The notes beneath the pieces were generated by a model. The model worked only from the letters and a program-made list of their open reading frames with translations, did not search any database and was not told the origin of the DNA. From assembly GCF_000003815.2 (NCBI RefSeq), contig NC_049994.1:17444490-17508489 (forward strand): 64,000 nt of DNA. The letters run 5' to 3'. Below are positions 3,799 through 63,800 of this stretch, in pieces. Position 1 is the stretch's first letter. Each line of letters begins with the position of its first letter. The stretch is from Branchiostoma floridae. Taxonomy: Eukaryota > Chordata > Leptocardii > Amphioxiformes > Branchiostomatidae. A program made the position numbers and the translations under genes.

Positions 3799-6700
3799 TC
3801 ATCTCCATACAGTGACGATGAACCCTAGCAACACTGTGACCCACGCAGTTGCCGTGGTAACGGTTGCCATGGACGCCGGGATGCTGTTGCAGCCGTTTGC
3901 GCCTCTACAGCAGCGGTGACAGACGTACTGACCTGCACATAGCGGCGGGAAGCAGAACTGCAGTTAGAAGCTCAGATGAAGATGTCTGACAGGTATCGTA
4001 ACGTATTACAAAGCAAAGAGAGACAATTCTGGTTGTGTTAAAGAGTTAAAGAAATATCGACATCCAATATTGTATTATCATGAAAGCTCATCTGTGTTCA
4101 ACTTGGTAGTAATCATAGTACAATGAATGATAAACGTTCTTTCAACACAAAGGTACACACGGATCAAATCTTCAATGACCACTGTCGCCTTCTTCAGGAT
4201 ATGACCTTTTTCATATCCCGTAGAAGGAAACGGTAGATGTTCAAAATGTATCCGTGTGCACCATTGTGTTGAAAGAAAGTTAAGCATTGTACTATCCAAT
4301 ATCCTTTATTCTACCGAATCTCCAGGCAGACCTACCGGTGGCATAAGGAGTTTAGCTGGCCACAGAGGGTTCTGAACACTGGAGACTATGTTCTACCAAC
4401 AAAACTATTTCCCGACGTACTGACATTACTTTGGTTTATTTTGTTGCTAATGTCATTTTCAGTTATGTATAGCTGTTTACATTATATTATTTATTATCAT
4501 CACGACTACTTTACTTCGTACTTATATTCATAATGCATATTCAGTTTGTTAGAATCAATTATGTTTTGTTAATCATGTTTTATTCACCTTCTGCATGCAA
4601 AACCTAAGTTATGGCATTTCTATTTGACCTCTGATCTCCATCCTTCACTTTGAGTTACCTCAGTTGATTTTGTTGGTTTTCTGTTTACGTATTGTATAAG
4701 ATTTGTTGCTTATGTATTGTATTCATTGATCATGTATTGTACGACTCCAGGAAGAATAGTGATACTACATTTAGTATCACTAATGGAGATCCAAATAAAA
4801 CAAACAAACAAACAAACTGACCGTTCTGCGTGGAGCACTGCTCGTTCGGCGTGTTGGTGACCCCGTTGTTCAGCGCCTCGCTGCTGCAATCGTCCGGCGC
4901 TCGGCACCCCCTCCGAACATTCACGAGGTTTGCCGAGCCCTGAGATTCGTACGTCATCTCCAGCTGTATAGGGAAAACCACAAACGTCTCCCTAGCTGGT
5001 ACACAGACCGATATTTTCGTCAACCGGTATCATGTCCGACTCTTAGATTCGTATATGTAGGTCAAGTCATTTGTACATAATCTCAAATGCGAAACCAGTT
5101 CACTCATACATGACTGTGCTGTTATCAATAACATTTTGCTGTTCTGTATGTGGCCTCTCAGTACTGTTGTTAATTACTTGTTGCCATACACTGTACTTTG
5201 TGCGATAGTGAGGCAATGAAGTTAACACACCATATTTGCAATATCTAATGTCATGTGCCACTTTAATATGGTACATAATGGCATGTTTTTTTTAACCATC
5301 ATAAAAGTAACCAATGTATTAAACAGCCCTTCCCATTATCGTAGGTAACAACGACCGAACTTACGTAGCACCACTCTCCAATACCACAGGCCGTCGTAGT
5401 GTCTCCGCTCTGCTGGGTTTCTGCGCAACTGCTGTTCCCGGTACATTCATAGCACTGCAAAGTGAGGGACATGCAGCTGTAGTTCCTCCAATAATAGATA
5501 AATGCCGTTGTTGTATGATTCTTTAATGATTTGTAGTTGTTGTTATTTTACCACGAACTGTGTTGTACTTCCAGTGATGTACATAAAGTCAGAAAAGTTT
5601 AGATCTTTCCCACACATGTTGGTGTATAAGGCGGTGCCAATCTCCCTCTTAGACCTCGGGCCACACAGCAGTGTGAAATATCTAGTGCACATACCGTAGG
5701 GTGTATCCAGTCCAGGTGCCAGAAAACCTATATCACCCCCGTCCCGCCCCGGTGTTGCCTGCTGTACATACCGTAGGGGATATCCAGTCCAGGTGCCAGA
5801 AAACCTATATCACCCCCGTCCCGCCCTAGTGTTGCCTGCTGTACATACCGTAAGGGATATCCAGTCCAGGTGCCGGATAACCTATGTCAACCCCCGTCCC
5901 GCCCCGGTGTTGCCTGCTGTACATACCGTAAGGGATATCCAGTCCAGGTGCCAGAAAACCTATATCACCCCCGTCCCGCCCTAGTGTTGCCTGCTGTACA
6001 TACCGTAAGGGATATCCAGTCCAGGTGCCGGATAACCTATATCAACCCCCGTCCCGCCCCGGTGTTGCCTGCTGTACATACCGTAGGGGATATCCAGTCC
6101 AGGTGCCGGATAACCTATATCACCCTCCGTCCCGCCCTAGTGTTGCCTGCTGTACATACCGTAAGGGATATCCAGTCCAGGTGCCGGATAACCTATATCA
6201 CCCCCCGTCCCGCCCGGTGTTGCCTGCTGTACATACCGTAAGGGATATCCAGTCCAGGTGCCGGATAACCTATATCACCCCCGTCCCGCCCTAGTGTTGC
6301 CTGTTGTACATACCGTAGGGGATGTCCAGGTGCCGGATAACCTATATCACCCCCCGTCCCGCCCCGGTGTTGCCTGCTGTACATACCGTAGGGGATATCC
6401 AGTCCAGGAAGTCGGTGACCTTGCTGTAGACCCCGGGACTCTGCTCCAGCGCGCACCCGCCGCCGAAACTCGTCACGCCCGCCAGATACCAGGAGCCGTT
6501 CCCGTCCTTCTGGCACACCAGGGGACCGCCTGGGGAAGGGAAACGGCAATTTACACTCACGTGACTGTGACGTAACTGAACGACCACCATATTGATGGAT
6601 TTAAAACGTGTGCGAAGTCAGTTGTGATATTAAAGCAGGCGGTGGCAGAACCAACCGCCAAGGATTTACGACATCATTTTCCGTGACCAGACAGCTGAAT

Positions 6701-60800: not shown

Positions 60801-63800
60801 TATGGTACAAGTTCAATGTTGCATTATGGTACAAGTTACTTATGTTGACCTTCCAATCCCAGGATGCACCTTGCCCTTAAGGCATATAACGAGCTGCTGA
60901 TGACCGTAAACGCGATGGACGCCTCGAAGGACCCGGCCGTGAGAGACAGCGCCAACGTGATCAAGAGTAAGGCCCTGGTTTTTGTCTTCGTTCACAGATT
61001 TCTGAATCAGGAAAGATTTTGGTCTTCATTATTAGTGCGAAATGAGGTGAAATTTGCAACGACAGTAACTTTGACCAATACTAATTAATTTTTTAAAACA
61101 CAGCTATGTTTAAAAATTCTTTGATATGTTCATTCAAGTTGGCTTCCCATTAATTTTTGCATTATTCTCGTCAACATAGAAGCTTCTTCCTCTGAACCGT
61201 TCCTATTCTGTGTCAACAAGTTGCTCTCTGAAGGTGTGATGCTATCTCAGGGCTTGAAATACTTTTTTTGCATACCTGCACTGGTGCAGGTGACATTGAA
61301 AATTACCTGCACCAGACAAATTTTACCTGTACCACTCTGAATTTAGGAAGTATGGATCATACTAAAACGGTTGAGGAACCATTGCTATTTTTTTTTCTTT
61401 TATTGCGGTAACAGTCAATGTAGCTAATAACAATTCACATACACCTGCATCATTTATGTATAAAACCCAGTACATGGATCAGTGCAGGTTAGGTGCAGGT
61501 AGACATCAGAAATACCTGCACAGCTCTAATTTTACCTGCACTAACCTGCAGGTGGTATTTCGAGCCCTGTATCTGTACATGTAGATAACTATAGAGATGC
61601 CCAAGTACTCCTGGTAATATTTATTGTTGTTTCCAGGTAACATTTTCTATGTGATGGAGTACCGAGAGATTTTCCTCACCCTCCTGAGGAAGTTTGACGA
61701 GACCAAACAGCCAAAGTGAGTATTAACAACATATAATTCCTTATGTCAAAATATCTTAAACAGTTTGAAGAAGCATATTCATTATTTTGGATGGTGACCT
61801 GAAGCCACTAGCCCTGTGATAGTAAGCCTGCGACCTTCAGGCAAAAAATTATTAAACCTCTGCACATAGAGAACATGATACACTTATTGAGAAGAGTGCC
61901 TCAGTTTTCTTGGCCAGTGCTTAAAAAAGTGAGCTATTGTATAGCAAAGCCACATTGCACTATCAGCTATCAAAACAGCATTATGCTTCATCTCTAAGCA
62001 TTACACTTAGAATTTAATGAAAGAAGATGATGATTATTGTTGCTCCTTCCTCAGAACGTACCTGAAGGACCTGGTTGAGACGACCCACGTGTTTATCAAG
62101 ATGCTGGAGCGATTCTGTAAGACCAAGGGTCACATCGTTGTGCAGGTAAACACCAGTGCCTTTTGTTATATGTTATCAGTGCCCCCTAGGGATTATGATT
62201 GGCATTGCAGTCCTTAACACTGAGATCTGCTGCACTGCCCTGCCGGTTCTGTAAGACTAAGGGTCACATCGTTGTGCAGGCAATCACCTGATAATTTTTG
62301 CATCCAGTTGTATTTCCCCATCTTGCAAGGGTGAGACATCCTTGCACTTCGGATTTGTCTTGTTGGTTTTCACTGTTAAGATTAAGAATAATGAATGTCT
62401 TCCTTTTTCGTATAATTTACTAAAACCTACATTTTCCGTTCTTTTTTATCAGAAAAAACGCAAGAAGACCAAGCGCAGAAAACGGACAGCTGAGCAAGGT
62501 ATTGTTCACCTCTTTGCTTCTCATAGATGGTACACAAAGTCGTAAGAAATCTTAACTAAATCTTAATTACTTATAGAACTGAAATAAGTTAGAATAATGA
62601 TGATGCAAGGTGTGATTATATTTTGAATGACTCCTTTCCCCAACATAAAAGATAGAAATACAGATATGCGTCTGCTTTGATAATATTATCCATTAAAAGT
62701 TCCTTCAAGAATGATACATTTGCAGAGGTAAAAGGCATTCTTAAGACGTTCCCTTGTGTCTTAAGGTACAGCTGGCCCTGCAGAGCCGTCAGAAGAAGAC
62801 CTGAACACGGTGTGGGACGGGCTGAGCGGGGACCTTTCAACATTCATCCAGGGGGAGGGAGAGCTGCCCCAGGACGTGGCTCCTTTTGATGCAGCCTTGG
62901 ATACCCCACTGGAGGAACAACGGTTGGTCCTACCACGCTTTGAACTTTATTTTGCATGACTTTGGTGTTGCCATGTACACATTACAGCAGAACATTAGGA
63001 GTTTTGTTTCAAACTATGTCCTCAATCGACTAAGGTGTAAATGAGTATTACTACTTAGCTTTGGTTAGGGGCACCCCCTTTAATCTCAAATGTCCTATGT
63101 GTGAGGAGAGTCACACCTGGAGCATGTTAAGGAACCGACCACACTTATTGAAAAGGGCAAATCCTGGTGTTAGTGGTTCAAACCTAACAATGTGATCTCT
63201 TGCAGCTTGTATTTACATGTACTCTACAAAACTGCTGTGTTATGTCTAAAGGCAGCTTACTCTTTACACAGAACAAACAAAACATATCCCTTTCTAGAGG
63301 TCTCTGTTTCTGTTGATTTTATTATCTGGAATTTTTGGCAATATAGCTAGAAAAAGACAGCGGTTGTCTTATTTTGAGTTTTTTGCTTATGTCCACTGCT
63401 TCATCGGTTAATTATAACAGTCTCTCATATTACTAGAAAGCTCGGTTGCTAAGTGTGACTCACTGTACTAGAAAAATAGGAGGAAAGAATTTAAATGCAG
63501 GGTATTTTATATACCCCACAGTGTGCAGGCGATGATCTCCATCCAGGACAGTTTGAGGGGAGGAGACCCGGGTCGGGCACTGGCTACGCTGCGAGCTGCC
63601 AGGTGAGCGTGTTGTCTTTACCGGATTCTTGCAAAAACTGACATAAAACATCCTAATAATCATGGCTATCCAATCTGTCCAACGACTAGAAAAATCCATG
63701 TAAAGCTGTTTTCGATACCCCTTTCACAAACCTACCAACTCTTTGATCTTAACAGATAGACTTTGACTAAATTTTTCTTCTAGTTTATTCCATTTTTCCT

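Follow-up and report, generated by a model that had tools for sequence, protein, structure and literature searches.

The stretch of Branchiostoma floridae DNA analyzed here, hereafter the window, covers 64,000 nucleotides (nt), from 17,444,490 to 17,508,489 of the 19.15 Mb contig NC_049994.1, in an assembly of 513.4 Mb and 431 contigs that was the one assembly analyzed. It carries four genes, a trypsin-like protease, ORC4, RNF113 and TIMELESS, in which the ends of exons recur inside the adjoining introns. The protease has a complete trypsin domain (Pfam Trypsin over residues 13–248 of 251), ORC4 and RNF113 were recognized through phmmer matches to ORC4 chain 5uj7_C (E 1e-56) and RNF113A chain 5z56_M (E 1.7e-65), and the TIMELESS model aligns with homolog chain 7pfo_K across 526 residues without a gap.

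Exon edges recurring in adjoining introns

Exons were called using a purpose-built small gene finder and then curated by hand. The terminal 30 exon nt at each edge were aligned to at most 1 kb of the intron flank on the edge's own side, with a local score of at least 14 taken as a match. The window set of 37 exons was fixed manually, at a point when the reported sites were already known; nine of the 36 gene-finder calls were omitted, ten exons were added, and three exon boundaries were corrected after the first curation. Intronic copies were found at 12 of the 73 curated window edges (Table 1), six donors and six acceptors with scores of 15 to 30, and these are exactly the twelve boundaries in four genes that the original prediction had named from the letters of the window. 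It had also placed donor-side copies downstream of the exon and acceptor-side copies upstream, and this held: matches lie in the own-side flank at 12/74 window edges and in the far-side flank at 0/74, with 2/187 and 1/187, respectively, in the genome sample described below (both totals take in a few exon ends omitted from the 73- and 182-edge counts used elsewhere).

Chance matching was examined by shuffling the flanks of uncurated gene-finder exons, 40 times for each edge. Eleven of the twelve sites were detected, eight at the exact edge and three at a nearby mispredicted edge (6351 for 6387, 10686 for 10748 and 62128 for 62145), and each of the eleven scored above all 40 of its shuffles, whose means ranged from 7.2 to 9.8. 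The twelfth site, the 45830 acceptor, went uncalled in this test. Without curation, edge matches numbered 10/72 in the window and 4/224 in the sample, and a first uncurated test using the window and 200 kb gave 11/66 and 3/124.

Table 1. Exons with copied edges and their intronic copies (window coordinates; TRF, Tandem Repeats Finder)
Feature	Position	Strand	Details
Trypsin-like protease exon	6387..6529	-	donor edge 6387; frame CQGDS/GGPLVCQ across junction
Donor-side array of 6387 exon	5689..6408	-	unit ~77 nt; TRF 9.4 copies
Protease exon	8768..8914	-	donor edge 8768 and acceptor edge 8914 both copied
Donor-side array of 8768 edge	8239..8795	-	mixed 23 and 32 nt units; TRF
Single acceptor-side copy of 8914 exon start	8983..9042	-	87% identity; 45 exon + 15 intron nt
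Protease exon (IVGG...)	10559..10748	-	acceptor edge 10748
Acceptor-side array of 10748 exon start	10861..11570	-	6 copies, inside TRF array 10624-11575
ORC4 exon	19375..19523	-	donor edge 19375
Two donor-side copies of ORC4 exon end	19108..19308	-	86% and 93%
RNF113 exon	29200..29292	+	acceptor edge 29200
Acceptor-side array of RNF113 exon	28689..29199	+	122 nt unit; 4 intronic copies
TIMELESS first coding exon	45830..45972	+	acceptor edge 45830
Acceptor-side array of 45830 exon	45313..45829	+	spacing 85-105 nt; 5 intronic copies
Single acceptor-side copy of 46557 exon start	46357..46400	+	86%; 19 exon + 25 intron nt
Donor-side array of exon ending 47139	47103..47325	+	unit ~60 nt; 3 copies, two junction-spanning
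Three degenerate donor-side copies of exon ending 49538	49566..49749	+	79-82% identity
Single copy of 50806 exon start, exon part only	50648..50690	+	86%; 42 exon + 1 intron nt
Single donor-side copy of exon ending 62145	62244..62300	+	86% over core

Structure of the copies and consequences for splicing

Tandem arrays are present at 6387, 8768, 10748, 29200 and 45830. A copy-by-copy alignment of the 6387 array gave nine intronic copies, each with ACG/gtatgt, and with up to one mismatch allowed, 18 core motifs were counted in the 8768 array, the authentic motif among them, which qualifies the copy number of up to 18 in the original prediction. Its range of unit lengths, 23 to ~120 nt, is right at the lower end and too short at the upper, as unit or spacing reaches ~175 nt; TRF also gives periods of a higher order, 155 and 403, among the window arrays. 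The RNF113 acceptor motif recurs at 28709, 28831, 28953, 29075 and 29197, with three of the four intronic copies the same as the authentic junction over a 70-nt core. A donor-like GTAAGT was also seen six bases past the acceptor in each RNF113 unit and in the authentic exon (CAG/ACAGCT/GTAAGT; 28709–29197). At the TIMELESS first coding exon, TTCCAG and then GTTAGTAAGT, an acceptor and a donor-like motif, stand back to back at 45332, 45430, 45515, 45620, 45722 and 45824.

If the copies came from tandem duplication across the junction, their intron part would be expected to be homologous as well, and this was tested at seven sites. Homology was found at 46557 (z 6.1), 8914 (z 6.4), 49538, 47139 and 19375, with z values reaching 12.0, and was not found at 50806 (z 0.65) and 62145 (z −0.28). 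A copy extends at least 8 nt to both sides of the junction at every site except 50806. The geometry proposed originally, a tandem duplication spanning the junction, thus looks right for ten of the twelve sites, and 50806 and 62145 are better described as edge copies of uncertain origin.

It is very unlikely that the arrays are an assembly artefact, made or enlarged by mis-joined haplotypes. The RNF113 array, with its 100% TRF match over 4.4 units, could look like one, a 919-base run of N lies at 6807–7725 close to a protease array, and passages of the report on Adh3 and the globins note that one globin array of this kind appeared misassembled in the genome draft used (PMC3087553). However, none of the twelve sites lacks a copy with an identity of 96% or lower (the lowest being 79%), which is hard to obtain from mis-assembly of a single locus, and for real arrays of this kind the same passages describe BflGb6 haplotypes with six and three units and somatic instability at Adh3 (PMC3087553).

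The consequences of using a copy in place of the authentic site were computed for 41 copy splice sites, located at nine of the boundaries through exact motif matches. The other boundaries are 45830, 8914 and 50806, the first of which falls outside the frame evaluation because its exon holds 5′ untranslated region and has no full-length open frame; the 45830 acceptor apparently lies in this untranslated region, with an in-frame stop preceding the TIMELESS start codon. Splicing at any of the 41 sites would disrupt the protein. Among the 30 donor copies, 27 would introduce a stop codon ahead of their own donor and three would lead to a frameshift. Among the 11 acceptor copies, seven would lead to a frameshift, their distances not being divisible by three, and four to a stop. 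The authentic site must therefore stay in use. Since our own position matrix rates many copies no lower than the authentic site, strength alone does not mark the authentic site, which may plausibly be chosen by pairing across a short exon. The original idea that the protein stays intact while splice sites multiply is supported as to the geometry; that purifying selection does the filtering, its other half, appears likely, as does exclusive use of the authentic sites.

The motifs kept in many copies, scoring like authentic ones, could also mean that the copies are retained for a function, as decoy or alternative splice sites or in recursive splicing. The 45830 units would also fit, as their adjoining acceptor and donor-like bases (TTCCAG/GTTAGTAAGT) resemble recursive splice sites. 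We consider such a function highly improbable, given that every evaluated copy site would break the protein and that the splice dinucleotide is lost in some copies (the donor of the 62145 copy is GC instead of GT, and one 19375 copy has AT). In addition, passages on reverse transcription PCR of a globin array and on Adh3 suggest normal splicing in those genes (PMC3087553). The differences between exons and copies also speak against function: 34 of 60 are synonymous (arrays counted repeatedly), a mix that we judge to be compatible with neutral copies lying beside a constrained exon.

Coding constraint on the copies themselves was considered and rejected, many differences being non-synonymous at other sites. 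In one sample locus (L021, 5888–6248, minus strand), a presumably ammonium-transporter-like exon end shows four differences from each of the two copies downstream of it, every one at a synonymous third position.

Edges compared with introns, exon interiors and the sampled genome

Fixed positions supplied 26 of the sampled stretches, each 10 kb long, with 20 from contigs C1 and C2 and a single one from each of C4, C6, C8, C10, C12 and C14; with two chaperonin-family (Cpn60_TCP1) stretches added, the sample came to ~270 kb. From 117 exons at a gene-finder score of at least 9, 26 were dropped (repeats, transposons, antisense or doubtful) and three were added to give 94. Eighteen of these come from the two chaperonin-family stretches, which were picked by homology and not by fixed position, and neither stretch gives an edge match at score 14. 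Copies were found at 2/182 sample edges, or ~1% (95% interval 0.1–3.9%). Four further trypsin-like loci, L005–L008, chosen for their similarity to the protease, were scanned around the region of similarity rather than at exon edges; two gave one weak match each (scores 14 and 15) and the other two gave none.

The density of copied edges in the window is not matched in the genome sample, although twelve sites in one window had been taken to suggest a genome-wide process. TRF coverage (period of at least 10) is 6.8% in the window, compared with a mean of 3.8% and a median of 2.0% in the 26 sampled stretches, and it is at or above the window's value in five of the 26, so the window is high and not unique. 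The local-repeat track covers 10–16% of the window's four multi-exon regions and 0–15% of 22 sample regions, 12 of which are at 1% or less. What makes the window a local extreme is the wealth of repeats in its genes, and not anything special about their borders.

Edges were compared with exon-internal 30-mers, tested against both flanks, and with intron points 50 nt apart, tested on both sides. In the exon-internal control put forward with the original prediction, interiors did match less often than edges, at 5/94 in the window (Fisher p 0.022) and 2/780 in the sample (p 0.16), and all seven interior matches (score of at least 14) sit in exons whose edge also matches. Edges were not above intron points, however. 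Copies were found at 77/623 intron points in the window (p 0.35 against edges) and at 97/1854 in the sample, where the difference runs toward fewer copies at edges (p 0.010). Other non-exonic points had copies at 47/1263 in the window and 248/6715 in the sample. Changing the threshold for the sample to 13 gave 6/182 edges and 112/1854 intron tests, and a threshold of 18 gave 2 and 56. Because exon interiors are protected by selection, intron positions are the fairer control.

Intron points are autocorrelated, so rotation tests were run as well, in which the repeat map (score of at least 16) was rotated within each multi-exon region with array sizes and spacing kept. Junction-centred copies were no more frequent than under rotation, at 11/73 in the window with 9.7 ± 2.7 expected and 3/176 in the sample with 5.6 ± 2.1 expected. 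Repeat footprints overlapping a junction (merge gap 120) numbered 10/27 in the window against 8.2 expected (p 0.25) and 5/52 in the sample against 6.5, and merge gaps of 60 and 250 gave window p values of 0.11 and 0.28.

These comparisons bear on the proposal that a special genome-wide process targets the boundaries, for example transcription- or splicing-coupled duplication that copies edges into introns. The excess of window edges over exon interiors would fit such a process, as would the large window footprints taken up below and the similar structure of other amphioxus genes in passages of two reports (PMC3087553, PMC3902484). The absence of a significant excess over intron points and rotated maps, in the window or the sample, and sample edges that fall below intron points make it improbable, and border-targeted copying was rejected as the leading view on the intron-point, rotation and footprint tests. 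Small as it is, the present survey already leans toward equal rates at junctions and in introns.

Window features beyond the copied edges were also noted. Two long open reading frames on the minus strand, 53358–55256 and 56491–57693, are TRIM-NHL-like, with RING and NHL-repeat matches and, in the first, a B-box match; they are apparently intronless and nested antisense in a TIMELESS intron. Reverse-transcriptase frames lie at 24208–26667 (minus strand) and 43191–44174 (plus strand), and the first, 820 codons without a stop, suggests a fairly young element resembling a long interspersed nuclear element.

Probable random duplication under selection, and amphioxus mirages

The most probable explanation of the edge copies, which we hold with considerable confidence, is random local tandem duplication that takes no account of exon borders and is filtered by purifying selection. 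Local tandem duplications, some of them grown to minisatellites, would arise throughout these introns regardless of the borders, presumably by slippage or unequal exchange. Duplications inside exons would mostly be removed, and those that copy an exon edge into the adjacent intron would remain. Where a duplicated unit includes a donor, normal mRNA should still be made from the first of the donors, and where it includes an acceptor, from the last of the acceptors, which is why border-spanning duplications would be tolerated.

Several results weigh against this explanation. The short exon-edge matches with unrelated spacer at 50806 and 62145 are unlike simple tandem duplication, and one copy in the sample lies on the far side of its exon. 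Edge matches are far more frequent in the window than in the sample (12/73 vs 2/182, Fisher p 8e-6), and the explanation does not say why the window genes are repeat-rich. The edge comparison has modest power, with bootstrap intervals for the edge/intron ratio of 0.59–3.11 in the window and 0.00–0.85 in the sample, so a border preference of up to about threefold may be compatible with the window; the corresponding limit in the sample is 0.85. Finally, 8/9 window footprints of at least 240 nt include a junction, where 5.3 were expected (p 0.029, in a bin chosen post hoc). This, the only hint of a border preference, was not replicated in the sample (3/8 vs 3.9 expected; pooled 11/17 vs 9.1, p 0.22), and large-array border preference was rejected as a candidate. 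It is unlikely, then, that in some genes borders are favoured for the growth or persistence of arrays, so that large arrays would gather there beyond what repeat density predicts.

Junction-spanning tandem repeats of this kind are known in amphioxus as mirages. The precedent that the original prediction named at amphioxus Adh is borne out by passages describing mirages in Adh3 and the globins BflGb6 and BflGb9 (PMC3087553), to which troponin C (TnC) and PGBD5 were added (PMC3902484). Their units are 10–72 nt in Adh3, 150–160 nt in BflGb6 and 157 nt in BflGb9, according to the same passages (PMC3087553, PMC3902484). In those passages and in the window alike, 5′ or 3′ boundaries are spanned, units vary in length and splice signals are kept in many copies, and the PGBD5 copies are described as imperfect, as are copies at all sites here. 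In the window the unit spans the boundary at 11/12 sites, units are in tandem at 10/12, and both 5′ and 3′ boundaries are affected. Ten sites fit mirages, and 50806 and 62145 are set apart by their non-homologous spacers. What differs is that twelve sites lie in four genes of a single 64-kb window. Several of these sites are degenerate or have one copy only, and at two the spacer shows no homology.

A likeness also exists to intron gain by tandem duplication, as passages on potato RdRp and ATP2A1 describe tandem duplications that bring splice signals with them and need not alter the protein (PMC4974935). Splice signals are duplicated in both cases and the protein is potentially unchanged, but here existing junctions are duplicated into adjoining introns. 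Among the literature matches listed, which covered few subscription papers, there was no genome-wide survey of junction-spanning amphioxus repeats, and none of the matches listed gave an earlier rate of edge-copied junctions.

With this analysis, four conserved genes are added that together hold twelve edge-copy sites, of which ten resemble mirages. Junction-spanning repeats were already known in amphioxus, and what is new here is the comparison with introns and a rough edge rate of ~1%. The comparison indicates that the exon interior misleads as a control, as the apparent targeting of borders vanishes when edges are set against introns. If the ~1% rate held genome-wide, the spliceosome would have to pass over duplicated splice sites in many genes. 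These would form a natural test set for how one site is chosen when several nearly the same are present, and for how introns may be gained when junctions are duplicated.

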